In this document: positions 3,518 to 48,893 of the stretch, piece after piece
Layout of the letters: each line of letters begins with the position of its first letter
Numbering within the stretch: position 1 is the first letter of the stretch
Source: a virus
Strand: one strand, 5' to 3'
Virus record (IMG/VR): IMGVR_UViG_3300028394_000001
Location: 106,521 to 170,520 of that record
Length of the DNA: 64,000 nt
The notes under the pieces: generated by a model
Databases searched by the model: none
The model's input: only the letters and a program-made list of their open reading frames with translations
Told to the model about the DNA's origin: nothing
Made by a program: the position numbers and the translations under genes

Positions 3518-4282
3518 ATGGCAAGCAATAGAAAAACAGCAATACAAAAACGTGATGATTCAATTGAAGGTGATGAGGTAACACACAGACACCAACCCGT
3601 TTCAAACTCACTAAAAATAAAATTAGACCATTTAAAAACATTTGAAGCACTAACACAAAATCAACAAAAGTTCTTTGACGCATACAAAACAGGTGATTAC
3701 TTTATTGGCCTATTAGGATCACCAGGTGTAGGTAAAACATTCTTAGCATTGTATCGTGCAATCGAAGAAGTATTAAACAAGGATAATCCTTTTACACATA
3801 TTGTAGTTGTTCGTTCCGCTGTACAGGTAAGAGACCAAGGTTTTGTTCCTGGTACATTGGATGAAAAGATGGAGATTTATGAAGTGCCTTACAAAGAAAT
3901 TTGTGAGACACTTTTTGGTCGTTCTGATGCATGGGAAAGATTAAAGGAACAAGGTTACGCTAGATTCATTTCAACTACCGCTATTCGTGGTATCTCTATT
4001 GACAACTCTATCATTATTGTAGATGAATGCCAGTCAATGACATTTCATGAATTGAGTTCGGTTATCTCCCGTGTTGGCCATCGTTCAAAGATTATATTTG
4101 TTGGTGACCTGAAACAGAATGACCTAATTAAGAGTAAACATGATATATCGGGCCTTGCTGAGTTTTTGAATGTTGCAAGACATATGGATGAGTTTACTGA
4201 AATTTTATTTACACCAAACGACATTGTTCGCAGCAGTTTGGTCAAATCATGGATTGTTGCCTGCGATAAATTAGGAATATAA
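3518..4282 (+). CDS. phoH: PhoH-like P-loop ATPase
   Basis: This is a 254-aa protein with Walker A GSPGVGKT at residues 67-74 and Walker B IIIVDE at about 165-170, followed by the PhoH-type GDLKQND motif. The order and spacing match the PhoH family, which is almost universal in marine myoviruses and is thought to be an ATP-dependent RNA-related enzyme. Its role in infection is unsettled. An AAGGA lies upstream of ATG 3518. The stop overlaps the start of the oxygenase island (ATG 4282), so phoH may be co-transcribed with it. Confidence 0.92.
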   Translation: MASNRKTAIQKRDDSIEGDEVTHRHQPVSNSLKIKLDHLKTFEALTQNQQKFFDAYKTGDYFIGLLGSPGVGKTFLALYRAIEEVLNKDNPFTHIVVVRSAVQVRDQGFVPGTLDEKMEIYEVPYKEICETLFGRSDAWERLKEQGYARFISTTAIRGISIDNSIIIVDECQSMTFHELSSVISRVGHRSKIIFVGDLKQNDLIKSKHDISGLAEFLNVARHMDEFTEILFTPNDIVRSSLVKSWIVACDKLGI

Positions 4283-4878
4283 TGATTGATGATGTGTTAT
4301 GTATTGAAGGTATCTTTGATGATCCGCAAGAAATTATAAATTTGGCGAAGAAACAAAGATACTATTCTTGTGAAGATAATCCTACAGTAAAAAATACAAA
4401 TATCAAGTATAGTGGTGAGAGAACCGACCATTTAGCCAACATATTGAGTGATGGTGAATACTATGAATTAACTAAGAAAATCATAAGTAAAATATTCAAA
4501 AATGTACCATCGTCAAATATAAAGGCTCAAATTATTTGTTTGTTTCACTATCTAACTGAAATGGACATACCGAACAGTTCTTGGATACACAAAGATACAT
4601 CATTGTATTCTGGTGTGATATATTTAAGTGAAGGTTTCAATGATAAATATAATAACCATGGTACCAAAATAATCATAGGCCGTGACGTTTTAAATTACCG
4701 CAATGAATTCAATAAGTTAATCCTATATCGTGGAGACTACTCACATTCGGCTAATTTTGGTTTTGGTCAAACTATAGATAATTCAAGACTAACATTAAAT
4801 TTCTTCATAAATGAAATAATGATTGATATGAAAAATGAAAATAAGGTAAAAGAGAAATACTATGATTACAAAACATGA
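4282..4878 (+). CDS. 2OG-Fe(II) oxygenase-like protein 1
   Basis: This 198-aa protein carries the elements of the double-stranded beta-helix dioxygenase core: an HxD pair at His103/Asp105 (WIHKDTSLYSGVIYL), a distal His155 (YRGDYSHSANFG) and an Arg169 (DNSRLTLNFF) in the position that binds the 2-oxoglutarate carboxylate. The family couples 2OG decarboxylation to hydroxylation or related oxidation of proteins, nucleic acids or small molecules. It is first in a run of four such genes around a radical SAM enzyme and a halogenase, so a protein or peptide substrate is inferred. It overlaps phoH by one base and the next gene by 17 nt. Confidence 0.75.
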   Translation: MIDDVLCIEGIFDDPQEIINLAKKQRYYSCEDNPTVKNTNIKYSGERTDHLANILSDGEYYELTKKIISKIFKNVPSSNIKAQIICLFHYLTEMDIPNSSWIHKDTSLYSGVIYLSEGFNDKYNNHGTKIIIGRDVLNYRNEFNKLILYRGDYSHSANFGFGQTIDNSRLTLNFFINEIMIDMKNENKVKEKYYDYKT

Positions 4879-5446
4879 ATGGTGGTCAACACCTGTTTGG
4901 GAGATTGAAACAGGATTTGATGAATATTTTAATTTGTGTTTTAGAAATGAATTACTTGATTTGATTTGTGCAAGTGAACATAACAAATATGTCGATATTT
5001 GGACAGTAGATTCCGACTATTGCAGACAATTGAAGAATAAAATATATGAAATGATGGATTTAATTTTACCTGAATATTTTTCAAACTACCACGAATCAAA
5101 ACCCTTTATATCAAATGGATGGGTGAATCAGCAAAAACCAGGACAATCATTTCCACTACACAGTCATGGTGAAAGTGTGGTGGCTTGCGTGTATTATATA
5201 GAAACTTATGAGAATAGTGGTGACCTTCTGATAGTAGATCCAAGGGGTTCTGTTGTTTGGGATTTGAATGTTGAGAATGGTGTAAACTCAGTAAAATATA
5301 AAAGAATTACACCAAAGGCAGGTAAAATGGTCTTATTTCCATCGTATCTATTACATTCAGTTGAAGAAAATAAGTCAGAAAAAACAAGATTTGGCATTGC
5401 TACAAATATACATATTCCCACGAAACACTATATAAATGACAGATAA
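4862..5446 (+). CDS. 2OG-Fe(II) oxygenase-like protein 2 (Oxy_5 type)
   Basis: In this 194-aa protein the metal site reads HSH (His100/His102) with distal His165 (LLHSVEEN) and Arg176 (TRFGIATN). This is the pattern of the 2OG-FeII_Oxy_5 group often seen in T4-like marine phages, where the second ligand is His rather than Asp. It shares the insert DLLIVDPRGSVVWD (residues ~121-134) with the later protein at 8674, so the two are paralogues. It sits directly before the late promoter and the Cys-rich gene. Substrate unknown; modification of a virion protein is inferred from context. Confidence 0.8.
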   Translation: MITKHEWWSTPVWEIETGFDEYFNLCFRNELLDLICASEHNKYVDIWTVDSDYCRQLKNKIYEMMDLILPEYFSNYHESKPFISNGWVNQQKPGQSFPLHSHGESVVACVYYIETYENSGDLLIVDPRGSVVWDLNVENGVNSVKYKRITPKAGKMVLFPSYLLHSVEENKSEKTRFGIATNIHIPTKHYINDR

Positions 5447-5449
5447 ATA
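5442..5449 (+). promoter_or_regulatory. Candidate late promoter (GATAAATA) before the Cys-rich gene
   Basis: GATAAATA fits the T4-like late motif and lies 24 nt upstream of ATG 5474, leaving room for a short leader with a ribosome site (GGAGAA near 5461). It would place the Cys-rich gene and its maturation enzymes under late, structural-phase control. Confidence 0.5.
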
Positions 5450-5473
5450 GACCATATCTTCGGAGAACAAAAA

Positions 5474-5875
5474 ATGACATTACCAAACACATCTCAAGGA
5501 ATATCTTTTCAAAATATAAGAGATGAAACGGGCCAACCTGCGGGTTTTTCCGCATCTATGCAATGGGTCAAGGACAACAGCAAACTCACAAAAGGCGGCG
5601 CCACTGGTGTTATTAATGACATGGGATCCCTACGCGATAAGGCATATTATAGAGATAATACTTCAGGCAATTGTAGTAATGGTAATTGTACATCTAATTG
5701 TAATTGCGGTAATAAAAATTGCAGTAATTGTATTATTACTGGCACCGTAAATTGTGCAAATTGCGATGCTTCGGCTTTTATCCAACCGAATTGTAATTGC
5801 AATTGTACATATAATTGTACCACTTCGTCAACATCTTTTAACTGTGATTGTTGGATCTGTGCTTGTACTTGGTAA
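5474..5875 (+). CDS. Asn-Cys-rich protein, probable substrate of the modification island, 133 aa
   Basis: Residues 1-65 form an ordinary-looking leader (MTLPNTSQGISFQNIRDE...), reminiscent of the short ISFxxIRxE starts of phage tail-decoration proteins. Residues 67-131 hold 16 cysteines (67, 72, 76, 78, 83, 86, 94, 97, 107, 109, 111, 115, 124, 126, 129, 131); 13 are directly preceded by Asn. The protein ends CDCWICACTW, with Trp127 and Trp133. A leader plus Cys-rich core next to a radical SAM/SPASM enzyme is the architecture of a RiPP precursor, and the Trp residues suit the neighbouring halogenase. Alternatives are a metallothionein-like metal binder or a disulfide-rich virion spike. No family is recognised. 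Confidence 0.75.
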   Translation: MTLPNTSQGISFQNIRDETGQPAGFSASMQWVKDNSKLTKGGATGVINDMGSLRDKAYYRDNTSGNCSNGNCTSNCNCGNKNCSNCIITGTVNCANCDASAFIQPNCNCNCTYNCTTSSTSFNCDCWICACTW

Positions 5876-5896
5876 TTTAATAAACTAGGAAAAAAT

Positions 5897-7381
5897 ATGA
5901 TTTTTGAAATTAATGCGGAGCGTAGTGCTTCAGACGTAAAGACTTTTTATTATGATAATGAAAAAAATATACTTTCAGATTCTACTGGATTTGTTTATGA
6001 GTATCCGGAACCACAGATTCCACAACCCGTAACAGGTACAGGCTTGGAGTTATTCCATAAATGTGAAGAGGTTAAACCCTTTGATAAAAATACTCCACTA
6101 AAAAAATCAAAAGATGTTACTGTCATTAAAATCCAATTAGGTTTATCATGCAACTACTCTTGTGATTACTGCTCACAAAGGTTTGTTGAAAGGCCACCAG
6201 AAACTAGTAAAAAGGATATTGAATCTTTCATCTCTAAGTTGGATAATCTAAACATTACAGAAAAAGCTGGACTAAGAGTTGAATTTTGGGGTGGTGAACC
6301 ACTTGTCTATTGGAAAACATTAAAACCTCTCGCTGAAACAATTGCTGAGAAATTTTCTCATTGGAAAAAGAAACCATCTTTTGGCATGGTGACTAATGGA
6401 TCACTATTGACAAGAGAAATATGTTCTTGGTTATATTATATGGGTTTTGGTGTTGGTATTAGTCATGATGGTCCAGGTCAACATGCTCGTGGTCCTGATC
6501 CATTTGAAGATCCAGAAAAAAAGAAAATCATCTTAGAGTTTTATAAAGTAATGCATTCCCAAAATCGTATTAGTTTTAATTCTATGATGAATAGAAAGAA
6601 TACTAGCCGCAAACAAATCCATGATTGGTTTGTTAATTTAACAGGTGATCCTACTGTTCCAATTGGTGAGGGTGGTTTTATTGATGCATATGATGAAGCC
6701 GCTATCAATAGTTCATTAGAAACAAAACAAGAACATTTTGAATACCGAAGAAATGCATTTAATGATATTTATAGTACAGATAATACAGATGAACAAATTA
6801 ATTTTGGTATTATTAATGACAAAACAGACATGTTTGTTCGTGGTGTTTTGAATCACACTGAATCTAAATTTGTTGGTCAAAAATGCGGAATGGACAACGA
6901 AGGAACAATTTCTGTAGACCTCAAAGGTAACATCACAACTTGCCAAAATGTTTCTATAATGGAAACCAGTAAAAACGGTGAGTCACACTTAGGTGGTAAC
7001 TTAGATGATTACGAAAATGTTGAACTGAAATCTGTTACTCATTGGATGAACCGAGCAGGTTGTAAGGATTGTCCTGTGTTGCATTTATGTAAAGGTTCTT
7101 GTATGTACCTTGACGGTAAATTTTGGGATATAACTTGCAATAATGCTTATAGTGATAATGTTGTTTTCTTTGCTTTAGCTCTGGAAAGAATTACAAATGG
7201 TTACATACCAACTAAAATTAAAGGTGATGGATTAGCTTTAGAAAGACAAGACATTTGGGGAACACTATATGAACACAAAGAAGTTGAAAAGAAAAAAATG
7301 ATACCAATTAAAATTATAGCAGAAAAAATTGGTATGTTAAATGATGTTGAAATTTACGGACAATCAAGAGTAGAGGCATAA
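5897..7381 (+). CDS. Radical SAM enzyme with SPASM domain
   Basis: In this 494-aa protein the radical SAM cluster motif is Cys85-x3-Cys89-x2-Cys92 (SCNYSCDYC), with the GGE motif at 132-134 (FWGGEP). The C-terminal part fits the SPASM pattern: C330-x13-G344-x4-C349, gap, C389-x2-C392-x5-C398-x3-C402, gap, C414, enough to hold two auxiliary [4Fe-4S] clusters. Such enzymes mature peptides (thioether or C-C crosslinks, as in sactipeptides and ranthipeptides) or activate sulfatases. It starts 21 nt after the Cys-rich gene, presumably its substrate. A ~75-residue N-terminal extension before the radical SAM core could bind the precursor. Full length, no disruption seen. Confidence 0.9.
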   Translation: MIFEINAERSASDVKTFYYDNEKNILSDSTGFVYEYPEPQIPQPVTGTGLELFHKCEEVKPFDKNTPLKKSKDVTVIKIQLGLSCNYSCDYCSQRFVERPPETSKKDIESFISKLDNLNITEKAGLRVEFWGGEPLVYWKTLKPLAETIAEKFSHWKKKPSFGMVTNGSLLTREICSWLYYMGFGVGISHDGPGQHARGPDPFEDPEKKKIILEFYKVMHSQNRISFNSMMNRKNTSRKQIHDWFVNLTGDPTVPIGEGGFIDAYDEAAINSSLETKQEHFEYRRNAFNDIYSTDNTDEQINFGIINDKTDMFVRGVLNHTESKFVGQKCGMDNEGTISVDLKGNITTCQNVSIMETSKNGESHLGGNLDDYENVELKSVTHWMNRAGCKDCPVLHLCKGSCMYLDGKFWDITCNNAYSDNVVFFALALERITNGYIPTKIKGDGLALERQDIWGTLYEHKEVEKKKMIPIKIIAEKIGMLNDVEIYGQSRVEA

Positions 7382-7382
7382 A

Positions 7383-8018
7383 ATGAAAGTTACAATCACA
7401 CAAGAATTGCAGAATTGCATTAACCTTTTAAATTCTATTCCTGCTGTAAAATCAGTTGCAGTATCTGAAGCTTCAGACATTATTAAATCACAAATTAAAA
7501 ATGTAGACTCTTTCGTATTCAGTTTAACTAACGAGATGGGTAATACAATTAAATATATTATTCCTAAAAATGCGATTATTCGTGCAACAACTCATCCAGT
7601 GGAAGATTTTATGGATATTGTTAATGTTATAACACAAAGACTACAATTCTTAGATGAAAATACGAATCCAGATTGGATTGAACCTTGTTATTATAATAAT
7701 ATCGAAACAACTAGAGTTGAAGTGGTCAGAGAAGATATAGCACCAATTGCCGCAAATACTGAATTGCAATTATTAGTGAATAGTTTGGAGGATCTACCTG
7801 GACTATTTAATGTTAATGTTTATTCATTAACATCAGGCAATGCCGATAGTGTATTTTTTACTTGTGATATTATTGAACATCCTCGAGGTGGAAAAATTAA
7901 TTTTGTGGTGCCTTTTAGTACATGCACAAATCTCGAAATGCATTCACAACTGATTGATAATGCAAATGAGTTATTCGAACAAGCAAAAACAGGAAATACA
8001 ACAACTAGTCAATCTTAA
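7383..8018 (+). CDS. Internally duplicated protein of unknown function, 211 aa
   Basis: The gene starts 1 nt after the radical SAM stop. The protein seems to contain two related ~85-residue units: residues ~7-92 (ELQNCINLLNSIPAVKSVAV...YIIPKNAI) and ~125-203 (ELQLLVNSLEDLPGLFNVNV...NFVVPFST), sharing a helix, a strand, a DS(V/F)xF step and a (Y/F)(I/V)(I/V)P strand. No catalytic motif is visible. The operon position suggests a partner of the maturase, for example a precursor-binding protein, but no RRE fold can be claimed from sequence alone. Confidence 0.6.
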   Translation: MKVTITQELQNCINLLNSIPAVKSVAVSEASDIIKSQIKNVDSFVFSLTNEMGNTIKYIIPKNAIIRATTHPVEDFMDIVNVITQRLQFLDENTNPDWIEPCYYNNIETTRVEVVREDIAPIAANTELQLLVNSLEDLPGLFNVNVYSLTSGNADSVFFTCDIIEHPRGGKINFVVPFSTCTNLEMHSQLIDNANELFEQAKTGNTTTSQS

Positions 8019-8024
8019 AATATT

Positions 8025-8681
8025 ATGAGAATCGAGAATATTTTTGGTTATAACATAACAAGAATACAATGTACAAATGAATCTCTCTATAGAGATAATG
8101 AAATAACCAAAACGGTTAACAATGTATTTAATTTTCCAAAAGTTCAAAGTAGAGATAGAACACTCAAGGGAGATTCTCATAAAGGTGCAGGTCTAACCAC
8201 GGTTAGTGAATCATACCTTTCTTTAGTAAATCTACCGGGTTTTGGTAATTTAACTGAATGGATTACACAGCAATTTTTATTGGCAAAAGAACCTTTGGGG
8301 CTTGACAATAAAGGAAATATCGTGTATTATAAGAGAAGTTGGGCAAATAGGTTATTTCGTGGCGGCCATGGATTATGCCATAATCACAATAAAGTGGATA
8401 ACTATATTGCGAGTCTTACGGATTATACAAATGAAAATTTTAGACCAGATGCTGTTGGTATTTTTTATCTTGATGTGCCGGAAGCTTCATCAAATTTAGT
8501 CATAGTTAAAGATGGCAAACCTGAGACTTGGATTGATGATTATGTAGAAGAAGATACTCATTGGATACAACCAATAGAAGGAGAGTTATTAATACACTCT
8601 CCTGATGTATATCATGCTGTGAGTGTTCATCACAATAATTTACCTCGTAATGTTTTTGTTTTTGATATTGAATATGTTTAA
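8025..8681 (+). CDS. 2OG-Fe(II) oxygenase-like protein 3
   Basis: This 218-aa protein shows a putative HxH metal pair at His119/His121 (LCHNHNK), distal His197 (DVYHAVSVH) and Arg208 (LPRNVFVFD), with the IFYLDVPE strand expected between them. The arrangement fits a double-stranded beta-helix oxygenase, although the overall sequence is less typical than the Oxy_5 neighbours. It has a longer N-terminal region (about 110 residues). It overlaps the next oxygenase gene by 8 nt. Substrate unknown. Confidence 0.6.
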   Translation: MRIENIFGYNITRIQCTNESLYRDNEITKTVNNVFNFPKVQSRDRTLKGDSHKGAGLTTVSESYLSLVNLPGFGNLTEWITQQFLLAKEPLGLDNKGNIVYYKRSWANRLFRGGHGLCHNHNKVDNYIASLTDYTNENFRPDAVGIFYLDVPEASSNLVIVKDGKPETWIDDYVEEDTHWIQPIEGELLIHSPDVYHAVSVHHNNLPRNVFVFDIEYV

Positions 8682-9198
8682 AAAGAATCTTTTTGCAACA
8701 CCAATTTGGCAAAGAATATTGCCAATTGAATTGAACAATGGATTATTAGAAGAATCTACTCAATTTGATGGTAATATATTTGATATGAACCTAACATATA
8801 CAAATAAACTAAAAAACATTATTAGAGAATTATACATCAACATCAACTATGAATACATACTTGAAGAACGCACAATTCATGGTAGACTGAATATAATAAA
8901 TTATGGAGAAAATGATACACCACACAGTCACATAGGTAAATCACTTTTAGTTGGTGTCTATTATTTGGATGTTGAGATTGATACGGGTGACCTTTTGTTA
9001 CACGATCCCAGAGGTGGTGTTGTTTGGGATAATTTAGATTTTGAACCGAATGACCCTATAAAAGGAAAAACTTCCAGAACTTATCATAGAATTAAACCTG
9101 TAAACGGATTATTAATTATGTTTCCTGGATATTTGGTACATTCAGTAGAAAACAATATGAATAAAAAACCAAGAAAGTCGATAGTTATTAACATATGA
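8674..9198 (+). CDS. 2OG-Fe(II) oxygenase-like protein 4 (Oxy_5 type), paralogue of protein 2
   Basis: I start at ATG 8674 (MFKKNLFATPIWQ), overlapping the upstream stop; an in-frame ATG at 8623 is deep in the upstream gene and would add a spurious hydrophobic leader. The 174-aa protein has HSH at His84/His86, distal His156 (YLVHSVEN) and Arg167 (KPRKSIVIN). The segment DLLLHDPRGGVVWD (residues ~106-119) matches that of the 4862 gene, and both open with a TPxW motif. It overlaps the halogenase start by 4 nt. Confidence 0.78.
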   Translation: MFKKNLFATPIWQRILPIELNNGLLEESTQFDGNIFDMNLTYTNKLKNIIRELYININYEYILEERTIHGRLNIINYGENDTPHSHIGKSLLVGVYYLDVEIDTGDLLLHDPRGGVVWDNLDFEPNDPIKGKTSRTYHRIKPVNGLLIMFPGYLVHSVENNMNKKPRKSIVINI

Positions 9199-10715
9199 AA
9201 TATACAATATTGGGTGGCGGAAGTGCTGGTTGGTTAACTGCATTGTTCATTAGAAAAATTTGTCCAGATGATGAGGTAACTGTCATTGCTAGCTCCGAAA
9301 TTGGAATTTTAGGTGCAGGTGAAGGCACTACACCTCAATTTCCTATGTTTCTTAAAAAGATTGATATATCGGTTCATGATATAATTAAAAACGCTAAAGG
9401 AACATTTAAGAATGGAATTAAATTTACTAATTGGAATGGAGATGGTGAACATTACTATCATAACTTTCAAGATTCATTAGTAAATTTCGAAGATTACAAA
9501 CACATTGATGTTAATCCCTATGCTTTAAATAACATTTCAAACCATGAAAATTTAGATAGCTTGAATTTTACTCCACTCATATCTGAAAAAAATAAAGTAA
9601 AATATATAAAATCTAATGATAAAGAATGTGGATCGGATGCGTTACATTTTGATGCAAATTTATTAGCCAAATATTTTCAAACTGTTGGTTTAGAAAGAAA
9701 TATTAAACTTGTTGATGATGAAGTTATTTCTGTTGATTCAAAGGACAATAAGATTGTTGGATTTAATTTAAAATCAAATAATAAGATAGATACGGATTTT
9801 GTTTTTGATTGTTCTGGTTTTAAAAGATTTCTAATTGGTGGCCACTACAAAGGTAAATGGAATTCTTATAATGACCATTTACCAATGAAACGAGCGATGC
9901 CTTTCTTTGTTCAGAACGACACTAAAGAGATTCCACCATACACAGAAAGTATTGCTATGAAGTATGGTTGGGTTTGGAAGATTCCGGTACAAGGTCGATT
10001 TGGTTGTGGTTATGTGTTTGATTCGGATTTGGTGTCTGATGAAGAAATCAAAAAAGAGTTGGAGGAATATTTTGGACATGAAATTATAAGTCCAAGAACA
10101 TTCACTTTTAATCCAGGTTGTTTTGAAGAGGTGTGTATAGGTAACTGTATTGCTATTGGTTTATCAGCCGCTTTTATTGAACCACTTGAAGCGACAAGCA
10201 TATGGGTTACCATTATGCAATTGACTGAATTTGAAGCGAATAAAAACAAAATCTTAAACGACTCTGGTGATTCTATTGAATCATATAATCAAACTATTAA
10301 GGCAATAAACAGAGACATTTTAAACTTTATACAATTACACTATTTAACTAATCGTAATGATAGTGTTTTTTGGAATACTTTTAAAGTAAAAAACAAGGTA
10401 TTACCGCAAATAGAAGGTCTTAAAGAATTGTGTCAAGATAAAATTCCAGAATCTCACAATTTAAAATACCTTACATTAACAGAAAATATTAACATAGGTT
10501 GTTCGCGTAGTAACCATCGGGGTATTTTTTCCGAAACAAGTTGGCATCAAGTTGGTGCCGGCATAAAATTCTTTAAAGAAGATATTGCAAGAAAAGTTTT
10601 GGATACTGAATATCCAAATTTTAAAAATGAGGTTATATTTCAGGACTTTTTTGAAAAAAATAGTGAACTGTTATATGACCATTACGATTACATAGAGAAA
10701 TTAAAAAATGTTTAA
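9195..10715 (+). CDS. Flavin-dependent tryptophan-halogenase-like protein
   Basis: In this 506-aa protein the FAD-binding motif GGGSAGW is at residues 7-13, GAGEGTTP is at 40-47, and the halogenase hallmark WxWxIP is present as WVWKIP (259-264). Lysines 72 and 76 (FKNGIKFTNW) lie where the catalytic Lys of PrnA-type enzymes is expected. The block AAFIEPLEATSIW matches the family's conserved second half. Members use FADH2 and O2 to form HOCl that halogenates tryptophan, free or in peptides. Here the adjacent Cys-rich protein supplies Trp residues. The gene is intact. Phage homologues (prnA-like) are known in T4-like cyanophages, but no substrate has been shown as far as I know. Confidence 0.87.
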   Translation: MKYTILGGGSAGWLTALFIRKICPDDEVTVIASSEIGILGAGEGTTPQFPMFLKKIDISVHDIIKNAKGTFKNGIKFTNWNGDGEHYYHNFQDSLVNFEDYKHIDVNPYALNNISNHENLDSLNFTPLISEKNKVKYIKSNDKECGSDALHFDANLLAKYFQTVGLERNIKLVDDEVISVDSKDNKIVGFNLKSNNKIDTDFVFDCSGFKRFLIGGHYKGKWNSYNDHLPMKRAMPFFVQNDTKEIPPYTESIAMKYGWVWKIPVQGRFGCGYVFDSDLVSDEEIKKELEEYFGHEIISPRTFTFNPGCFEEVCIGNCIAIGLSAAFIEPLEATSIWVTIMQLTEFEANKNKILNDSGDSIESYNQTIKAINRDILNFIQLHYLTNRNDSVFWNTFKVKNKVLPQIEGLKELCQDKIPESHNLKYLTLTENINIGCSRSNHRGIFSETSWHQVGAGIKFFKEDIARKVLDTEYPNFKNEVIFQDFFEKNSELLYDHYDYIEKLKNV

Positions 10716-11373
10716 CTATTGCGCTGTACCTACACTAAAAGATATTAAGGCTGAGACTTTCCCAGATGGCCGATACTATGTAATGGAAGACGGTGCAAGA
10801 TTGCCGTCAATTACGACTGTACTGGGTGCTTTAAGTAAGGCTGACATACTTGCATGGCGTAAGCGTGTTGGTTATGAAGAAGCCAATAAAATCTCACGCA
10901 AAGCATCTGGTCGTGGTACCAATATGCATAGCATCTGTGAAGCATATCTAAACAACAATATAGAGTATTCAAAGAAGGCTATGCCTGATGCATTGGAAAT
11001 GTTCAAGAGCCTCAAACCAATTATAGATGCAAATGTGTCTGATATTTGGTACCAAGAATGTGCATTGTTTTCCAAAAAACTTGGTGTTGCAGGTCGTGTT
11101 GACTTGATTGCACATTGGGACGGAAAACTATCTATCATTGATTTCAAGACCAGTAGCAGGATTAAAACCAGAGATAAGGTTATGTCCTATTTTTGGCAAG
11201 AAACTGCATATGCATTGATGTTAGAAGAAATGATTGATATACCTGTTGACCAGATTGTTACCGTTATGGCAGTAGATGGTTCTGAACCATTGGTGTTCAT
11301 TGAAAAGACTCAAGACCATATCGATGGACTAGTAAAAGCCATACAATTCTATAAAGATTCTTTGGTGGCTTGA
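10708..11373 (+). CDS. RecB-like PD-(D/E)XK exonuclease
   Basis: In this 221-aa protein the nuclease core is visible: GVAGRVDLI at about residues 125-133, the IIDFKTS strand near 144-150 (Asp and Lys of PD-(D/E)XK) and the QETAYAL helix near 166-172 (RecB motif QxxxY). The family comprises DNA exonucleases such as Cas4, RecB and MGME1, and phage copies likely process replication or recombination intermediates. It begins 8 nt inside the halogenase gene. The stop at 11371-11373 is embedded in the -35 box of the RNA-locus promoter. Confidence 0.8.
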   Translation: MFNYCAVPTLKDIKAETFPDGRYYVMEDGARLPSITTVLGALSKADILAWRKRVGYEEANKISRKASGRGTNMHSICEAYLNNNIEYSKKAMPDALEMFKSLKPIIDANVSDIWYQECALFSKKLGVAGRVDLIAHWDGKLSIIDFKTSSRIKTRDKVMSYFWQETAYALMLEEMIDIPVDQIVTVMAVDGSEPLVFIEKTQDHIDGLVKAIQFYKDSLVA

Positions 11374-11503: not shown

Positions 11504-11601
11504 AACACTATAGAAGATTAGATAATATCAAATCTCAGGGCTGGTACACCAGATTACTCTAGGGAAACCTAAAAGTGCAGATAGACCGTATAGTGTTTTT
11601 T
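11504..11601 (+). ncRNA. Structured RNA module 2, same design as module 1
   Basis: A perfect 9-bp closing helix (11504-11512 with 11589-11597) runs into six T (11596-11601). It encloses three hairpins: AGATT/AATCT (11515-11535), CTGG/CCAG (11541-11552) and TAGG-GAAA-CCTA (11560-11571), the last capped by a GNRA tetraloop. The two modules are similar in size and begin and end with AACAC...GTGTTTTTT, but their interiors differ. The module abuts the tmRNA acceptor piece, so it may be part of the precursor transcript or a processing or termination element. Confidence 0.5.
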
Positions 11602-11665
11602 ATTGCTGTATGAAGCAAAGAGAAAAGTGTTCTGGACGGGGGTGCGAATCCCCCCAGGTCCACCA
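11602..11665 (+). ncRNA. ssrA: Permuted tmRNA, acceptor piece
   Basis: The T arm is GGGGG-TGCGAAT-CCCCC (11638-11654), followed by the 3' acceptor strand CAGGTCC (11655-11661), discriminator A and encoded CCA (11663-11665). The acceptor strand pairs over 7 bp with GGGCCTG at 11750-11756, which lies downstream, so the gene is circularly permuted. TGTTCTG (11628-11634) can pair with CAGAGTG (11783-11789) as helix P2, with wobbles. The 5' boundary is uncertain; a small TTGC/GCAA hairpin lies at 11603-11618. Confidence 0.85.
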
Positions 11666-11749
11666 TAAGGATTGTAATGAAAGAAAAAATATTAACTGCT
11701 ATTGAAATGATTGCAGAGTTCCTAAAAGGAATAGCACAATCTTTATGAT
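11666..11749 (+). other. tmRNA intervening segment (excised from the precursor)
   Basis: The 84 nt between the CCA of the acceptor piece and the first base of the coding piece. In known permuted tmRNA genes this spacer is removed during maturation. Here it carries an AAGGA-led ORF that nearly fills it (see 11677-11748). Confidence 0.75.
11677..11748 (+). CDS. 23-aa amphipathic peptide ORF inside the tmRNA spacer
   Basis: ATG 11677 to TGA 11746-11748 encodes MKEKILTAIEMIAEFLKGI plus AQSL. An AAGGA (11667-11671) sits 5 nt upstream of the ATG, a good ribosome site. Hydrophobic residues recur every 3-4 positions (I5, L6, I9, I12, F15, L16, I19), giving an amphipathic helix like a membrane-active or modulator peptide. 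The ORF ends 1 nt before the mature tmRNA coding piece. It could be chance, but ribosome site, length and amphipathicity together are notable. Confidence 0.4.
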   Translation: MKEKILTAIEMIAEFLKGIAQSL

Positions 11750-11916
11750 GGGCCTGCATAGTTTCGACAGGGCAAAGAGTAACAGAGTGGACAGCACGGT
11801 AGGCGATGACCGTTAATCAAGCAAAAAACGTAAATGCAAACGACTCCGCATATCGCCTAGCTGCTTAAGCTAAGCTGAGGTTTCGCCGACTGTCCTTATT
11901 ATCCAATCAGTCGGCA
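11750..11916 (+). ncRNA. ssrA: Permuted tmRNA, coding piece with tag ANDSAYRLAA
   Basis: Begins with the 5' acceptor strand GGGCCTG (11750-11756) followed by the D-loop-like GTTTCGACAGG typical of tmRNA. The tag reading frame runs from resume codon GCA 11836 to TAA 11866-11868: A N D S A Y R L A A, with the AND start and LAA end of proteolysis tags. A strong GCCGACTG/CAGTCGGC hairpin (11885-11915) closes the 3' end. tmRNA with SmpB rescues stalled ribosomes and tags products for degradation; here the phage brings its own. The exact 3' boundary is not determined. Confidence 0.88.
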
Positions 11917-11941
11917 ATTTGTTCAACAAAAGGAGAAAATT

Positions 11942-12385
11942 TTGATTAAAAAACTCGTACTTATCGCATCCCTTATGGGTGTATTTGCAAGCGCACAGGC
12001 TTTAGAAGTTGGTATCAATGATGGTACTAATCTTAGCTCAACGCAAAATGTTTGGGGTGTTACAGTAGGTGAAACTGTGAAAGGTTATAACTTAACCGCA
12101 GGCTTCAATCGTTCTACAACTGCCGACTCTTATAGTTTGGTAAATGCTGTAGAGGTAGCAAAATTTGGACCTGTATCACTTGATGCTAAATTTGGTGCTG
12201 TCTTTGTTGACAGTCAATCAGGTTCAGCTTATGATGGTTATGCCGCTACGGTTGGTGTCGGTGCTCGTATGCCTATCACTAAATCAGTTTCAGCAGGCCT
12301 TGATTACAGTTACCAAGCTGGTCAAGACCGTGTTGTTGCAGAAAACGGTAGCCGTATCACTGCTGGCGTTAAATTTAGTTTCTAA
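11942..12385 (+). CDS. Small outer-membrane beta-barrel protein, TTG start
   Basis: This 147-aa protein has a clear signal peptide (MIKKLVLIASLMGVFASAQA, cleavage after residue ~20) and an alternating-polarity body of short amphipathic strands with Gly and aromatic residues. It ends in ...GVKFSF, the C-terminal Phe recognised by the BAM machinery. The start is TTG 11942 with AGGAG about 6 nt upstream (11931-11935); no suitable ATG is available. The size fits an 8-strand OmpA/OmpX/Ail-like barrel. A phage-encoded barrel could alter the host surface, for example to exclude other phages, but this is inference. Confidence 0.75.
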   Translation: MIKKLVLIASLMGVFASAQALEVGINDGTNLSSTQNVWGVTVGETVKGYNLTAGFNRSTTADSYSLVNAVEVAKFGPVSLDAKFGAVFVDSQSGSAYDGYAATVGVGARMPITKSVSAGLDYSYQAGQDRVVAENGSRITAGVKFSF

Positions 12386-20268: not shown

Positions 20269-20457
20269 TTATTTCTTAGTTGCGTTTCGTTGTTTTATTT
20301 TCTCATTTTCTTCTTCAATATATTGTGTAAGCAAAGTAATATAAATGTCTCTTTCCCAAGGTAACATGGTTTCTAGTTCGGTTAGACTGTATTTGTGATG
20401 CTGCATCAATGCAAAATTGGTTGTATAATAATTTCGCAGAGTATCATGCCGCATCAC
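20269..20457 (-). CDS. gp51: gp51-like baseplate hub assembly protein, 62 aa
   Basis: This small helical protein contains NFALMQHHKYSLTELETMLPWERDIYI, a pattern I associate with the marine phage gene after gp26 that is annotated as gp51 (hub assembly catalyst). The start at 20457 shares a base with the end of the gp26-like gene, so they are translationally coupled. In other tailed phages a protein of this kind follows the tail-assembly gene and acts as a chaperone. The function is by context. Confidence 0.6.
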   Translation of the reverse strand: MMRHDTLRNYYTTNFALMQHHKYSLTELETMLPWERDIYITLLTQYIEEENEKIKQRNATKK

Positions 20458-21182
20458 TACCCGAAAAAATTTTCAAGGCCCTCCACATCAATGGTATGAT
20501 GGAAACCACATTTCTTACAGTCCATTTCAATCTTCTTATTCAATACAGGAAGATTGTCAAAAAAGTCTTCAATTCTTGAAAACTGTTCTTGATTCAAAGA
20601 TTCAATAAATTCAACCATTTCTTCTTTTGAACTTTCATTTGCATAATAGAATTGTTCACCGTCAAAAATGTATTCAACACTATTGACAATCATTTCAAAA
20701 GCCATATCGGTAGAACTTTGTGTGTCCTTCACTAAATCGAGTGCAGAAAACTTTGGATAAGATAGTTTAATCATAATCTTATCTGTAAGTTGAATTTCAG
20801 ATTTACTTTCTTGTGTTTCAGTAATTTGAATATCTAATAAGTTTATACTAACTTCCATCAAATTACCACAAGCTTTTTCTTCTACTATGTTCTCGCAGCG
20901 GTATTTGTTTTCTACTACTTCACCGACGGATCGTGCTCGCAGTTGGATAAAGTAGTATTCAATATCAATGATTGGTAAATTATCAATATCAATGTTCTCT
21001 GTCAGGGTACAATTGTGTAGAACTTGCTTAATGTTCTTTTCAATTGTTTCTCTTTCATTTGCCTCCATAGCCATCATTAGGTTCCTCTGTTCTTTCACTA
21101 AGAAAGGACGGAAGCGCACCAGTTTCTTGCTCATAGGTAAAGTCAATTCAAAGATTGGTGAATCTATTTTAGGTAAAGCCAT
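20457..21182 (-). CDS. gp26: gp26-like baseplate hub subunit
   Basis: This 241-aa protein begins MALPKIDSPIFELTLPMSKK and has the RFRPFLVKEQRNLMMAME block typical of the T4-like base-plate family (gp26). Cys pairs occur near residues 95-104 and in the C-terminal MDCKKCGFHHTIDVEGLENF tail. The role is in assembly of the central hub. It precedes the gp51-like gene with a one-base overlap, the usual arrangement. Confidence 0.78.
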   Translation of the reverse strand: MALPKIDSPIFELTLPMSKKLVRFRPFLVKEQRNLMMAMEANERETIEKNIKQVLHNCTLTENIDIDNLPIIDIEYYFIQLRARSVGEVVENKYRCENIVEEKACGNLMEVSINLLDIQITETQESKSEIQLTDKIMIKLSYPKFSALDLVKDTQSSTDMAFEMIVNSVEYIFDGEQFYYANESSKEEMVEFIESLNQEQFSRIEDFFDNLPVLNKKIEMDCKKCGFHHTIDVEGLENFFG

Positions 21183-43721: not shown

Positions 43722-46700
43722 ATGGCAAATACAGTTAATATTTTAGGCTACGCCAACACATTTGGTGATTGGATCGTTGCAACTAATGCAGGTTCCAATG
43801 AAATCAATTCTATTGGTAAATACGATTGGACCAAAGATTCTGGCACATTGACTTTAAATGGTACAGGTACTGCTTTAACTGTTGCTAATAATGTCATTGT
43901 TGCAGGTCAATTACTGGTTACAGGTACAGCTTCTTCAGCAACTATCGACAATAATTTAACTGTAGGTAAACAAGTATATTTTACAAACACTACACAAAGC
44001 TTGGTTGCAAGTGGTTCTGTTACTGCAAATGGTACAGTTTATGCTAGCAATACAGGAACAAGTTTAGCCGTTGCAAACAATACTACAATTGGAGGTTCTT
44101 TAACGGTAGGTGGTGTAACATTAATCTCAAATACATTAACTGTTACTAAATCAACAGTTCTTCAAAATACTTTGAGTGTTGGTAAAGACACAATAATTAC
44201 AGGTAATTTAAATGCAACATTAGAAACTTATACTAACTTATTAGTATCTAATACGGCTATCAGAGCAGCAGTTTTATCAGTTCTTGGTACCACTTATACT
44301 AACACACTTCAGGCCAATACAAACATTTTAACTGGGGTAATTCAATCTAACACTTCAGTAAATACCGCAACACTATCTGTAACAGGCACATCCTTTACAG
44401 ATAAACTACAATCTAACACCGCAGTTAATACTGCCACAATATCCGTTACTGGTGCAAGTTTTACCAATACTTTACAAGCTAACACCGCCGTAAATACAGC
44501 CACGTCTTCAGTAACAGGCGCAAGTTTTACCAATACTTTACAAGCTAACACCGCTGTAAATACAGCCACACTATCTGTTACCAATATTTCATATACCGAT
44601 AAACTACAAGCTAATGCCGTTGTAAATACTGCGACTTCTTCGGTGACAGGTATTTCTTACACAGATAAGTTACAATCTAATACAGCAGTTAATACTGCCA
44701 CAATATCCGTTACTGGTGCAAGTTTTACTAACACACTTCAATCTAATACGGCAGTTAATACTGCGACTTCTTCAGTGACTGGTATTTCTCATACTGATAG
44801 ATTACAAGCTAATAGTTCAGTTAATACGGCTACAATATCTGTTACTAATATTTCTCACACAGATAGATTACAGGCTAATAGTTCAGTAAATACCGCAACA
44901 CTATCTGTTACCAATATTTCTCATATCGATAAAGTGCAAGCTAATAGCGTTGTAAATACAGCCACATTATCTGTTACCAACATTGCTTATACTGATAAGT
45001 TACAAGCTAATAGTGTTGTAAATACCGCCACACTATCGGTCACAGGTGTTTCGTATACTAACACACTTCAGGCCAATACGAATGTTTTAACTGGAGTAAT
45101 TCAGTCTAATACTGCTGTTAATACGGCTACAATATCTGTTACTAATATTTCTCATACAGATAGATTACAGGCTAATAGTTCAGTTAATACTGCTATTTTA
45201 TCTGTTACCAATATTTCTCATATCGATAAAGTACAAGCTAATAGCGTTGTTAATACAGCCACATTATCGGTTACCAATATTTCGTTTACAGATAAGTTAC
45301 AGGCTAATAGCGTTGTAAATACAGCCACATTATCTGTTACTAACATTGCTTATACCGATAAGTTACAAGCTAATAGCGTTGTAAATACAGCCACATTATC
45401 CGTGGTTGGCAATACTTGGACTAATAGAGTTCAAGCTAATGCTTCCGTAAATACAGCCACATTATCCGTGGTTGGCAATACTTGGACTAATGCATTACAA
45501 GCTAACGCGACAGTTAATACGGTTACAATGTCTGTGGTTGGCACTAGTTACACAGGATATTTGCAATCTAATAATACTGTAAACACTACTACAATTTCAG
45601 CAACAGGAAATACATATACTAGTTATCTTATTGCAAATAATGATATTTCTGTATCTAAACTGTATGTTACGAGTACACTTCTTTCGGCAACAAATGCTGT
45701 AGGTGCATTCCAATCTCTAACAACATCGGCCGGTTTGACTGTTGGTGGTACGTTTACAATTAACGGAACAACAGTTTATACAACAAATAATTTTGTAATA
45801 AACGCAAACACTTATACACCAATCACAAGTTATTTTAGTGTTAATAGGGGTACTGCAAATAATCAACCCACTGGTATTCCAAATGCAAATGCATCCATTC
45901 GTTGGAACGAATCAAACAAATATTGGGATATTTTAGATTCAAATAATGGCATTTACTATTCGCAAATTATGACTGCGAATATGATTTCTGATAGTGCAAC
46001 ATCTACAAGTATTTCAACTGTTCCAACAAGTAAAATTTCAACCGCAATTTATGCTCATGCGAACGCGGCCTTTGAGCAAGCTAATGTAGCAATACCAGCT
46101 AGCTCGTATGCTAACTCAGCTTACCTGCAAGCTAATTCAGCCTATGTGTCACAGAATACAACCGGTCAATATGCTAACTCGGCCTATGGTGTATCCAATT
46201 CAGCTAGTTCGTATGCTAATTCAGCTTACCGTGGCGCAAATTCAGCCAGTTCGTATGCTAATTCAGCATTTATTACTGCTAACAATGCTTTAGCTAATGT
46301 TGGTTCCATGGTTACGTCTAATAGCAGTACCATGTATACTTTTGCCAACAATTCGGCATCCACTTCGAATGTCACAGGTTCCGTTGTTATTGCGGGCGGC
46401 CTTGGTGTAGGTGGTAGTGTATACACTGGCAATGTTGTGATTAGAGGTTCTGGTAATGGTATTACCTTTGTTGATGGTTCGGTTCAATTCACAGCAGGTT
46501 CACCTGCAGCATCTGTATATGCTAATGCCGGTTTTGCACAGGCTAATACAGGTACTCTAAATGCAGCGTCAGCCAGTTCATACGCTAATGGTGCATTCTT
46601 AGTAGCTAATACAGGTACTTTAAATGCTGCAGCAGGAAGTTCATATGCCAACTCAGCTTATGGTGTAGCTAATAATGCATTGGCTAATACTGGCACATCA

Positions 46701-48893
46701 GTAACAGCTAACAGCTTAACAGTATACACTTTCTCAAATGCAACAGCATCTTCTTCAAACACAACTGGTGCTGTTGTTATTGCAGGCGGTCTTGGTGTAA
46801 GTGGCAGTGTGTATTCTGGTAATGTTGTTATTAGAGGTACTGGCAATGGTATCACCTTTACTGATGGTTCAGTTCAATTTACGGCAGGTTCACCTGCAGC
46901 ATCCGTATATGCTAATGCCGCTTTTGCTGCAGCTAATACAGGTACTTTAAATGCAGCATCAGCCAGTTCATATGCTAATTCAGGTTACCGTGATGCAAAT
47001 TCAGCCAGTACCTATGCCAACTCTGCATTTGCTGGAGCTAATACAAGTACTCTAAATGCGGCTTCTGCTAGTTCTTATGCTAATTCAGGATACCGTGATG
47101 CCAATTCAGCTAGTTCATATGCTAACTCTGCTTTTGCTGGAGCTAATACAAGTACTCTAAATGCGGCTTCTGCTAGTTCTTATGCTAACTCTGCATTTGG
47201 TATTGCTAATACATCCATTTTAAATGCTGCATCTGCTAGTTCCTATGCTAATGGTGCATTTGCTAGAGCTAATACAACTGGCCTTTACGCTAATGCTGCG
47301 TATGTACAAGCTAATACAGGTACATTAAATGCTGCATCTGCTAGTTCCTATGCTAACTCTGCATATGGTAAAGCAAATACTGCACTAACCACTGCGGGTG
47401 GTCAAATCATAGGTGATTTGGGTATTACTGGTAGTTTAACTGTTAATGGTCCATTAACTTACATAAATGTTGCAACATACCAAACAGTCGATTCTCTAAT
47501 TGAATTAGCTGCAAACAATTTAGGAGATGTGGTTGATATTGGTTTTTATGGCCAATATGTAAACTCAGGTACAAAATATACAGGACTAGTAAGAACAGCT
47601 TCGAGTGATTGGACTCTATTCCAAGGAATAACAACGAATCCAACAAGTAATAGCATTGGTGCTATATCGTTTGCAAATTATGGAACATTAAACACAAATA
47701 TTGCTGCAGGACAAATAACCAGTTCACAGGCAATTCCGGTTGCTTCCGGTGGTACTGGCGTCAAAACATCTACAGGATCAGGTTCAGTTGTATTGAGTGC
47801 TTCACCTTCATTAACATCACCTTCATTTACAGGCAACATTGGTGGTGATATTGGATTTAATGGCGTAGGGGTATCTCAGTGGAATCTTACTCTTGGTAAA
47901 ACAGTTACAGGTACGAACACGGGTGGTGGTATATTGGCGCAAGGAACCGCCGGTGGTGGTATGACTGGTTGGTATACAAGTTTCTATAGTAATATAAACA
48001 CCGCCGCCGGTTTACTTATGGATAACGCTTATCATTTCATAGCCGGAAGTGTAGCTGCAGGTGGTGGAAGTGTTGTATCTAATACTACGGGTTTATATAT
48101 TTCCGATTTGTCCACAGGAACAGTATCTAATCACGGTATTAAAGGACTTGTTTCAGCTGGCGCAGGTAAATATAATCTATATCTCTCAGGAACCGCAGAC
48201 AATTATTTACAAGGCAACGTAGCAATTGGTGGAACAACACCTGCGTCTGCTCCTAAATTGTCTTTATATGGCAGTATGCGATTCTTGACTAATCAAGCGC
48301 CATCTGCAACTTATACAGGTATTGGTTCTGTTAGAACTGATGAAGTTTCTATATCTACATCAGGCAACGAAAGATTTAGAATTACCTCTACCGGCGCAGT
48401 ATATTTTGGAACAAATGGAAATGGTAGTGGAAGTGTTAATCCTGATAATATATTCCAAAGTGATTTAACGAACACGGTCCAGAATGCAACTTCAGGTATA
48501 TTTCATCGAATAAACGGAGCAGATAGGCTCGTTACAGCTAATGCAGGTGTAACTGCTACAGGTGTCCTAACAGCTACAGGTAACGTCGTTGCATTCTCTG
48601 ACATAAAGCTTAAAACAAATATAACAAATATTGATAATGCATTGCAAAAAACTTTACAATTGCGTGGTGTTTATTACAACAAAAAAGACGATATTGAAAC
48701 GAAAAAGGTCGGTGTAATTGCACAAGAAGTTTTAGAAGTATTGCCTGAAGTTGTAATGTCACATGTGGATCAGACAACGAAAGAAGAAACACTAACTGTT
48801 GACTATGGTAATATAGTAGGATTGTTAATCGAGGCTATTAAAGAATTGAACGAAGAAGTTCAATACTTAAAATCAAAAATACCAAACCAATAA
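43722..48893 (+). CDS. Giant tail-fibre protein with S74 self-cleaving chaperone domain, 1723 aa
   Basis: Order: N-terminal attachment-like region (residues 1-205); about 19 copies of a 22-residue repeat (VNTATxSVTNISYTDKLQAN type, ~206-630); a short beta region; SYANSAY-type 11-residue repeats (~780-1215) interrupted by two copies of a GAVVIAGGLGVSGSVYSGNV module; a diverged TxDSLIELAANNLGDVVDIGFYGQY module near 1255; and a C-terminal Peptidase_S74 domain (SDIKLKTNITNIDNAL...KKVGVIAQEV), whose Ser-Lys dyad releases the chaperone after trimer folding. Likely receptor-binding or long fibre. Confidence 0.85.
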   Translation: MANTVNILGYANTFGDWIVATNAGSNEINSIGKYDWTKDSGTLTLNGTGTALTVANNVIVAGQLLVTGTASSATIDNNLTVGKQVYFTNTTQSLVASGSVTANGTVYASNTGTSLAVANNTTIGGSLTVGGVTLISNTLTVTKSTVLQNTLSVGKDTIITGNLNATLETYTNLLVSNTAIRAAVLSVLGTTYTNTLQANTNILTGVIQSNTSVNTATLSVTGTSFTDKLQSNTAVNTATISVTGASFTNTLQANTAVNTATSSVTGASFTNTLQANTAVNTATLSVTNISYTDKLQANAVVNTATSSVTGISYTDKLQSNTAVNTATISVTGASFTNTLQSNTAVNTATSSVTGISHTDRLQANSSVNTATISVTNISHTDRLQANSSVNTATLSVTNISHIDKVQANSVVNTATLSVTNIAYTDKLQANSVVNTATLSVTGVSYTNTLQANTNVLTGVIQSNTAVNTATISVTNISHTDRLQANSSVNTAILSVTNISHIDKVQANSVVNTATLSVTNISFTDKLQANSVVNTATLSVTNIAYTDKLQANSVVNTATLSVVGNTWTNRVQANASVNTATLSVVGNTWTNALQANATVNTVTMSVVGTSYTGYLQSNNTVNTTTISATGNTYTSYLIANNDISVSKLYVTSTLLSATNAVGAFQSLTTSAGLTVGGTFTINGTTVYTTNNFVINANTYTPITSYFSVNRGTANNQPTGIPNANASIRWNESNKYWDILDSNNGIYYSQIMTANMISDSATSTSISTVPTSKISTAIYAHANAAFEQANVAIPASSYANSAYLQANSAYVSQNTTGQYANSAYGVSNSASSYANSAYRGANSASSYANSAFITANNALANVGSMVTSNSSTMYTFANNSASTSNVTGSVVIAGGLGVGGSVYTGNVVIRGSGNGITFVDGSVQFTAGSPAASVYANAGFAQANTGTLNAASASSYANGAFLVANTGTLNAAAGSSYANSAYGVANNALANTGTSVTANSLTVYTFSNATASSSNTTGAVVIAGGLGVSGSVYSGNVVIRGTGNGITFTDGSVQFTAGSPAASVYANAAFAAANTGTLNAASASSYANSGYRDANSASTYANSAFAGANTSTLNAASASSYANSGYRDANSASSYANSAFAGANTSTLNAASASSYANSAFGIANTSILNAASASSYANGAFARANTTGLYANAAYVQANTGTLNAASASSYANSAYGKANTALTTAGGQIIGDLGITGSLTVNGPLTYINVATYQTVDSLIELAANNLGDVVDIGFYGQYVNSGTKYTGLVRTASSDWTLFQGITTNPTSNSIGAISFANYGTLNTNIAAGQITSSQAIPVASGGTGVKTSTGSGSVVLSASPSLTSPSFTGNIGGDIGFNGVGVSQWNLTLGKTVTGTNTGGGILAQGTAGGGMTGWYTSFYSNINTAAGLLMDNAYHFIAGSVAAGGGSVVSNTTGLYISDLSTGTVSNHGIKGLVSAGAGKYNLYLSGTADNYLQGNVAIGGTTPASAPKLSLYGSMRFLTNQAPSATYTGIGSVRTDEVSISTSGNERFRITSTGAVYFGTNGNGSGSVNPDNIFQSDLTNTVQNATSGIFHRINGADRLVTANAGVTATGVLTATGNVVAFSDIKLKTNITNIDNALQKTLQLRGVYYNKKDDIETKKVGVIAQEVLEVLPEVVMSHVDQTTKEETLTVDYGNIVGLLIEAIKELNEEVQYLKSKIPNQ
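44340..45630 (+). repeat. Array of ~19 coding repeats of 66 bp
   Basis: Each unit encodes 22 residues of the form LQANxxVNTATxSVTxxSxTDx. Units differ by synonymous and conservative changes, and one (near 45060-45110) carries an 11-residue insertion (LQANTNVLTGV) also seen at the start of the array. The array lies inside the first fibre gene and implies growth by unequal recombination. Confidence 0.8.
46075..47390 (+). repeat. YANSA-type 11-residue repeats in fibre 1
   Basis: Repeated SSYANSAFxxANTxxxNAA units of 11 or 15 residues. An 11-residue period is expected of hendecad coiled coils with a slight right-handed twist, compatible with a trimeric fibre shaft. The same unit recurs in fibres 2, 3 and 5. 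Confidence 0.7.

Follow-up and report, generated by a model that had tools for sequence, protein, structure and literature searches.

The locus described here lies in the IMG/VR virus record IMGVR_UViG_3300028394_000001 (170,520 bases), the final 64 kb of which (bases 106521-170520) form the stretch analysed, hereafter called the window and numbered from its first base. Eight genes on the plus strand, from 4282 to 10715, are flanked on the same strand by the genes of PhoH (3518-4282; Pfam PhoH, 131.7 bits) and of a PD-(D/E)XK nuclease (10708-11373; PDDEXK_1, 31.9 bits; phrog_298, E 8e-68). From PhoH to the nuclease, gaps and overlaps between neighbouring genes range from -17 to +27 bases, and the G+C content of the cassette is 31.7%, compared to 36.6% for the window. 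In order, the cassette encodes a protein resembling 2-oxoglutarate (2OG)-dependent oxygenases and related to DUF6445 (p2, 4282-4878), a 2OG-Fe(II) oxygenase of the PF13759 type (p3, 4862-5446), a Cys-rich protein of 133 residues that is the presumed substrate (5474-5875), a radical S-adenosylmethionine (SAM)/SPASM enzyme belonging to phrog_1802 (5897-7381), a partner protein of 211 residues (p6, 7383-8018), a divergent 2OG-Fe(II) oxygenase (8025-8681), a further 2OG-Fe(II) oxygenase (8674-9198) and a homologue of flavin-dependent tryptophan halogenases (9195-10715). The initial annotation, which was made from the letters alone, had already listed these genes, and every open reading frame (ORF) was recovered on the plus strand where it had been placed. 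The two flanking matches bear out the position of the island between PhoH and a nuclease, and the radical SAM, halogenase and oxygenase calls were backed by Pfam, NCBIfam and PHROG matches together with motifs, two of the four oxygenases staying sub-threshold in Pfam.

The Cys-rich protein contains 16 Cys and 13 Asn-Cys (NC) dipeptides and terminates in CDCWICACTW. Given a Cys content of 0.51% in the other window ORFs counted, the binomial probability of this ORF is 2e-17. An alignment of four sequences with 32 invariant columns delimits a conserved Cys-rich domain with a C-terminal Trp (5642-5872), and the protein and its relatives consist of a conserved N-terminal part followed by the C-terminal Cys domain. 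A similarity search with the window protein against annotated phages gave no match. In two of the related loci (L006 and L007; loci are given by their L numbers), the neighbour of the radical SAM enzyme is a Gly-rich protein of 364-367 residues, the last ~85 of which are homologous to the window protein; a similarity search with residues 1-283 of the L006 protein gave no match. In L042, a small Cys protein is encoded after two genes of structural look (2128 and 364 residues, unscanned) and directly before the enzyme.

In the Achromobacter phages JWF and 2-1, the enzyme is encoded within the tail module, and a nearby fibre-like protein carries NCNC-type runs directly before a Hint-type domain (by annotation for JWF). 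For JWF gp028, which adjoins the enzyme in the tail module, the annotation lists features of Hint and of T4 gp36. The same NCNC-then-Hint layout was found in a Burkholderia paludis genome contig (L092). A Hint-type domain follows the Cys tip in L002, L003 and L092, recognised by annotation in JWF and by motif in the others. In Limnohabitans and other genome contigs, the enzyme comes after collagen-type or TGDTMTG-repeat proteins ending in NCNC runs. In L019 and L022-L024, the NCNC run lies just before a Peptidase_S74-type domain (recognised by Pfam for L022 only, 22.6 bits, cut-off 22). Tail-fibre PHROG matches were obtained for L094, L022 and the collagen-like L091, the last through low-complexity repeats. 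In a third class of tips, the run ends before a ~170-residue domain starting with CSKIIC (a label coined in this analysis), whose sole match in an annotated phage is a protein encoded after a 'fiber protein' gene in cyanophage SynMITS9220M01. The protein encoded there (L248:4669-6519) has 616 residues, and its CSKIIC-like domain is directly preceded by eight arginines and an extended stretch of prolines, a further unusual low-complexity tip on this type of C-terminal domain.

In 124 of the 131 loci compared, all with non-identical enzymes, the predicted mature end is at most 3 residues away from the last Cys; Asn precedes 73% of the Cys, and 39% of the Cys-Cys steps are C-x-C. By its homology, we group the window Cys-rich protein with fibre-like phage proteins whose NCNC-type tips stand either at the C terminus or directly before a processing-type domain. 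The proteins of L123 and L143, in which the NCNC end is preceded by runs such as CQTCQGCQKC, are possibly a different type of Cys-repeat substrate; two radical SAM enzymes are encoded in L123 and one in L143. In L178, L181, L211 and L221, three consecutive Cys-tip ORFs precede one radical SAM enzyme, as if one enzyme served several tips.

Alternatively, the 133-residue protein might give rise to a free modified peptide, that is, a bacteriocin-like or signalling member of the ribosomally synthesised and post-translationally modified peptides (RiPPs), and the fibre-like relatives would represent another use of the enzyme family. The enzyme classes are indeed those of RiPP pathways, and a small stand-alone protein of the substrate type is found in the window, L009, L010 and others. 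Furthermore, PHROG tail-family matches in the window comprise a baseplate hub (20457-21182), baseplate wedge subunits and a long tail-fibre protein (43722-48893), and ~15 kb separate the Cys-rich gene from the closest of the tail genes scanned, a distance that also counts against a fibre tip. We nevertheless consider a free peptide quite unlikely: the Cys domain is common to the window protein and the Gly-rich proteins of L006 and L007, the small protein of L042 sits between two structural-looking genes and the enzyme, and, in agreement with the initial annotation, which saw neither, no protease or exporter was recognised among the ten genes including the flanks (Pfam and PHROG; NCBIfam on eight).

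The radical SAM enzyme matches Radical_SAM with 32.4 bits (cut-off 29.5) and the SPASM model TIGR04085 with 32.2 bits (cut-off 27). C85, C89 and C92 as well as the SPASM cysteines 330, 349, 389, 392, 398, 402 and 414 are invariant in seven aligned enzymes, and among the 175 enzymes of at least 400 residues, CxxxCxxC is present in all 175 and Cx2Cx5Cx3C in 172. The best curated profile matches, all weak, include the maturases geopeptide, PapB, QhpD and CcpM, SCIFF following at a lower rank, and the second of the solved-chain matches is 5wgg, which we take to be the SCIFF maturase CteB. Because of these matches, thioether cross-linking is our first guess for the chemistry on the Asn-Cys repeats, and we put its chance of being right at about even. 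The enzyme might also epimerise or otherwise alter the Asn beside Cys, resulting in a proteusin-like tip with D-amino acids, a reading that differs in chemistry only. The frequency of Asn before Cys and of C-x-C steps speaks for this, as do the hydroxylases and B12-radical-SAM enzymes at some loci; with Cys-directed maturases (PapB, CcpM, SCIFF and QhpD) among the best curated matches, weak as they all are, we regard it as possible but rather unlikely. Four copies of the enzyme were found in Thalassobacter stenotrophicus CECT 5294 (L102, L103, L112 and L115), one of them cut at a contig end.

The pairing of the enzyme with a Cys-tip gene was examined in three sets of loci, between which some contigs are shared. 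Set (a), chosen by the enzyme, comprised 115 loci: the best 80 of 511 viral relatives, 5 further ones (3 shared with the 80), 30 genome loci, 2 Achromobacter phages and the window. A Cys-tip ORF was present on the enzyme strand in 104 of these, within 3.5 kb in 103 and within 100 bases in 73. A stricter first Cys filter had given 93 of 115, and the looser one was adopted once it was clear that the first had overlooked fibres in L038-L041 and other loci. For set (b), loci were picked without regard to the enzyme, through a DNA pattern encoding NCNCxCNC, which yielded at least 118 new loci, 104 of them with an NC-reading ORF. Among the matches listed, to which all following counts for this set refer, we found the enzyme at 53 of the 57 NC-reading ORFs with at least 4 kb downstream, on the same strand in 52 of 53. 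The enzymes of set (b) are mostly different from those of set (a) (47 of 53 non-identical, 44 distinct) and are 25-63% identical to that of the window in local alignment. The four NC-reading ORFs without enzyme (L157, L201, L230 and L232) are counted in the denominator and do not look like fibres. As a control, the enzyme was near 1 of 14 matches that are not read as NC (1 of 7 with at least 4 kb downstream), namely in L124, where the motif lies 29 bases from the contig end.

Set (c) was chosen by the flanking nuclease and comprised the best 80 of 357 relatives. Both enzyme and Cys tip were present in 11, the enzyme alone in 1 (L328, whose sequence reaches just 2.6 kb upstream of the nuclease), the Cys tip alone in none and neither in 68, many of which have little upstream sequence. 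The initial annotation had suggested a search for co-occurrence of the radical SAM and Cys-rich genes; approached from the enzyme (104 of 115) or from the tip pattern (53 of 57), the two recur together, and judged by these counts their pairing is real in both directions.

At the PhoH-nuclease site, PhoH abuts the nuclease with a gap of 0 in L249, whose nuclease is 92% identical, and in L251-L253. We read this junction in the nearest nuclease relatives as the empty site. In L250, L264 and L271, an oxygenase occupies the site without the radical SAM enzyme. Presence or absence at a single site and the lower G+C content would both suit a selfish or hitch-hiking island, in which the enzyme and the Cys-rich gene are functionally unlinked. 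This we hold to be highly improbable, as the pair is kept in viral contigs, in cultured phages such as the isolated siphovirus JWF and in bacterial genome contigs, with differing gene orders, and as the paired enzymes reach down to 25% identity to that of the window. Just 3' of the nuclease, the window contains a permuted transfer-messenger RNA gene (11556-11959; RF04321, 133.9 bits; overlapping beta_tmRNA match RF01850, 101.4 bits), for which ARAGORN gives the tag ANDSAYRLAA.

Tailoring genes were counted in 112 loci. The largest oxygenase cluster comprises 103 genes in 61 loci, and a second oxygenase-like group is present in 18. Genes of an Asp/Asn beta-hydroxylase-type family were found in 31 loci (one scanned representative, PF05118, 28.0 bits, cut-off 22.6), flavin halogenase-type genes of two subfamilies in 30, B12-radical-SAM genes in 23, PP-loop protein genes in 10 (Asn_synthase match sub-threshold, 13.2 bits, cut-off 21) and desaturase-like genes in 8. 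In several loci, a fatty-acid-desaturase-like gene stands between the radical SAM and Cys-tip genes (L057:4623-5345 and relatives; PF00487, 39.3 bits), and the cassette of L009 includes a tripartite tricarboxylate (TctC) receptor-type gene (L009:13617-14522; PF03401, 184.7 bits).

The last residue of the tip was determined in 155 loci with an enzyme of at least 430 residues and a readable tip. From these, 46 loci without halogenase and with less than 4 kb downstream were set aside, among which L017 is the only one ending in Trp; three halogenase carriers were not counted, namely L014, whose fibre ORF is broken, and L005 and L087, whose loci contain no tip. A terminal Trp was found in all 27 loci with a window-type halogenase and in none of the 82 without (at least 4 kb downstream). 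When only non-identical enzymes were considered, the counts were 19 of 19, with 18 distinct tips, and 0 of 72. Two of the Trp tips are of the S74 type, with the Trp right before the predicted cut (..ACFW/SDDTLK and ..DCFW/SDDTLK, the slash marking the cut). Eight supposed halogenase loci without terminal Trp encode a distinct flavin protein of ~400 residues that lacks GGG[ST]AGW and had been dropped from the window-type count beforehand. A PP-loop gene together with p244 coincides with a terminal Gly in 9 of 9 loci, compared to 3 of 100 without (non-identical enzymes: 9 of 9 and 3 of 85). On a FastTree enzyme tree, the halogenase changes 2 times, the terminal Trp 2, the PP-loop gene 3 and the terminal Gly 7, and sign tests on independent pairs of this tree could not reach significance. 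The halogenase-Trp match is complete, and no significance can be claimed for it because it represents about two independent events. As far as these loci go, the tip end varies with the tailoring enzymes around a constant enzyme/tip pair.

One could also imagine that the fibres end in NCNC tips that bind metal or form disulphides and that the radical SAM enzyme and the oxygenases act elsewhere, for instance on nucleotides, lipids or host targets. C-x-C repeats are able to bind metal, relatives also carry fatty-acid-desaturase-like, TctC-like and B12-radical-SAM genes, and other marine phages possess oxygenases and halogenases as well. Fibre ends of this kind would leave unexplained why the enzyme is found at 53 of the 57 loci of the blind NCNC pattern and why the tip end matches the halogenase or the PP-loop (Asn-synthetase-like) gene, and we consider them very unlikely.

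The individual tailoring proteins of the window differ in how closely they match known families. For p2, the DUF6445 match is sub-threshold (22.5 bits, cut-off 24), phrog_1644 gave E 1e-14, and the residues H103-x-D105, H155 and R169 of an HxD...H...R pattern are invariant in a seven-member alignment. When the profile of p2 was compared to those of the other oxygenases, no relation emerged (probability 0.3%), and the oxygenase call therefore rests on the residue pattern and the sub-threshold match. p3 matches 2OG-FeII_Oxy_5 with 67.5 bits (cut-off 27), and H100, H102, H165 and R176 are invariant in nine aligned oxygenases. PF13759 gave 52.2 bits for the oxygenase at 8674-9198 and 22.8 bits, below the cut-off of 27, for the divergent one (phrog_81, E 8e-11). 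The halogenase homologue (PF04820, 311 bits), whose activity is predicted, carries the motifs GGGSAGW, FKNGIKF, WVWKIP and EPLEAT. Its solved matches are tryptophan halogenases including the viral VirX1 (E 3.5e-43), and one Lys aligns with a Lys of a Trp 6-halogenase that is presumably catalytic.

Family searches with p6 gave weak chance-level matches only. Its AlphaFold2 model (mean predicted local distance difference test score 86.3) is a tandem alpha/beta repeat, for which no Foldseek match at E <= 0.001 was obtained; the best solved neighbour reached Z 6.0 with a root-mean-square deviation (rmsd) of 3.0 over 73 aligned residues. Proteins related to p6 are encoded at +1 of the radical SAM gene, and after the enzyme in most halogenase loci. 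p6 may present the tip; no family match to a RiPP recognition element was found in the cassette, and the p6 fold is without a clear solved neighbour. A companion of ~285 residues in many loci, c16, showed no relation to p6 in a profile comparison (probability 0.4%). Its residues 190-285 make up a C-terminal domain of Ig-like fold (Z 11.9, rmsd 2.4, 93 aligned), which also matches the neck of phage Chi (8vhx; Z 10.6, rmsd 2.5, 91 aligned) and intimin, and this domain suggests that c16 is a surface protein.

All this makes it probable that the eight genes form a removable cassette of the phage, the enzymes of which mature, after translation, the C-terminal, Asn-Cys-rich tip of a virion protein of the tail-fibre or adhesin type. 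The two-way pairing, the tip position, the exchange of tailoring enzymes, the match between terminal Trp and halogenase and the catalytic motifs were all obtained by sequence comparison. A RiPP-like cassette with a virion component as likely product had been proposed in the initial annotation and gains support from this comparative evidence, the substrate being sharpened to a tail-fibre-type tip. In the course of events that we infer, from each chemical step and the cleavage to the virion location and role, the fibre protein would be made first, and in relatives with a C-terminal Hint, S74 or other domain, this domain would be cut off, which would turn the Cys-rich tip into the end. The radical SAM/SPASM enzyme would modify the Asn-Cys repeats, the likeliest change being thioether cross-links that start from the Cys sulphur, as in several distant characterised relatives, the 2OG oxygenases would hydroxylate the tip, and the halogenase would halogenate the terminal Trp. 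The outcome would be a rigid, chemically unusual tip touching the host. Cross-linked and reduction-proof, such a tip could survive outside the cell and show unusual groups to a receptor.

Several points, besides the distance to the tail genes, weigh against the maturation of a fibre tip. We infer the modification of the Cys-rich protein from sequence comparison. At the thresholds applied, the window protein matches no family of Pfam, PHROG or NCBIfam, and hence none of fibres, and the Cys-tip proteins of L006 and L035 have no tail-fibre PHROG match. The enzyme misses the curated maturase cut-offs (geopeptide, 83.8 vs 400; PapB, 77.8 vs 340; CcpM, 65.8 vs 500). In 11 of the 115 loci of set (a), no Cys-tip ORF was found. 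Contig ends or broken genes explain eight of these: the enzyme starts at most 26 bases from the contig end in L008, L045 and L087, the contig ends ~260 bases after the enzyme in L047, the fibre ORF is broken in L014, the enzymes of L106 and L113 are in pieces and the contig of L115 ends within the enzyme gene. No such explanation applies to L005, L097 and L104. The halogenase-Trp match corresponds to about 2 changes on a quick tree. Finally, halogenase matches were found in 82 other phage records without this radical SAM enzyme in view; of the halogenase records listed (60 of the 82), the search with the enzyme had a single one in common, that of Campylobacter phage CP21. Scattering of the enzymes without the Cys-rich gene is what the initial annotation had named as contrary evidence. 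It was found in part, for the halogenases and 2OG oxygenases, which also occur with no such radical SAM enzyme in view (the 82 records; L250, L264 and L271), but not for the radical SAM and Cys-rich genes, which are kept together both ways.

More tentatively, and with slightly less than even confidence, we propose that these loci represent a general fibre-tip-building system in tailed phages of several lineages. In such a system, a core radical SAM enzyme would act on the Asn-Cys repeats and exchangeable enzymes would set the last residues, the halogenase going with a terminal Trp, the PP-loop, Asn-synthetase-like enzyme with a terminal Gly and the hydroxylases with Asn, so that receptor chemistry could be changed by an enzyme swap as well as by the fibre sequence. 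As a rule, the host recognition of phages is deduced from nothing but protein sequence, and the occurrence of relatives of this gene pair in many other phages and bacterial genomes suggests an unrecognised way for viruses to build or diversify host-contacting tips. If phage enzymes do cross-link, hydroxylate or halogenate fibre tips, some adhesins would bind via a chemistry that is invisible to sequence or structure prediction, and the tips would be the first concrete candidate substrate for a phage halogenase and for 'auxiliary' phage oxygenases. The cassettes would also be a new source of peptide-modifying enzymes that work on the exposed end of a large protein.

Radical SAM/SPASM maturation as such is known; for a fibre-type protein as its substrate, no precedent was found among the articles listed. 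Radical SAM gene cassettes of pelagimyophages lie in the host-recognition cluster, a region that holds tail fibres, and the excerpts of that article (PMC7029224) put forward neither a substrate nor a modification nor a Cys tip. Among the matches listed, excerpts of open-licence PubMed Central articles did not tie radical SAM enzymes to tail-fibre modification; PMC9959647 and PMC7996906 mention JWF, and the word 'radical' was not found in either. The window enzyme resembles the radical SAM/SPASM maturases of RiPPs (PapB of ranthipeptides, geopeptide, CcpM and SCIFF) in its CxxxCxxC core, its seven SPASM cysteines and the adjoining Cys-rich gene. In contrast to these, it falls under the curated cut-offs, its presumed substrate is of the fibre type with a C-terminal tip, it is carried by a phage, and its cassette differs from RiPP clusters in that no exporter or leader protease was recognised by the searches described above among the ten genes. 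The QhpD/QhpG pathway matures quinohemoprotein amine dehydrogenase, its substrate being an enzyme subunit. The likeness here consists of a match of the radical SAM enzyme to TIGR03906 (73 bits) and a weak one of the flavin enzyme to QhpG (E 0.0026), both far below the cut-off. Self-processing tail-fibre domains are known to serve folding. Such domains, Peptidase_S74 in L019 and L022-L024 and Hint in L002, L003 and L092, follow the Cys tip, where they would also set which residue ends it. Viral halogenases, namely VirX1 (cited in PMC6864650) and the cyanophage tryptophan halogenase PrnA, for which a role in antibiotic protection was suggested (PMC2984593), belong to the same family as the window enzyme and are likewise phage-borne. 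Whereas no phage-particle substrate is named in the excerpts of these two articles, the terminal Trp of the neighbouring tip is a candidate here.

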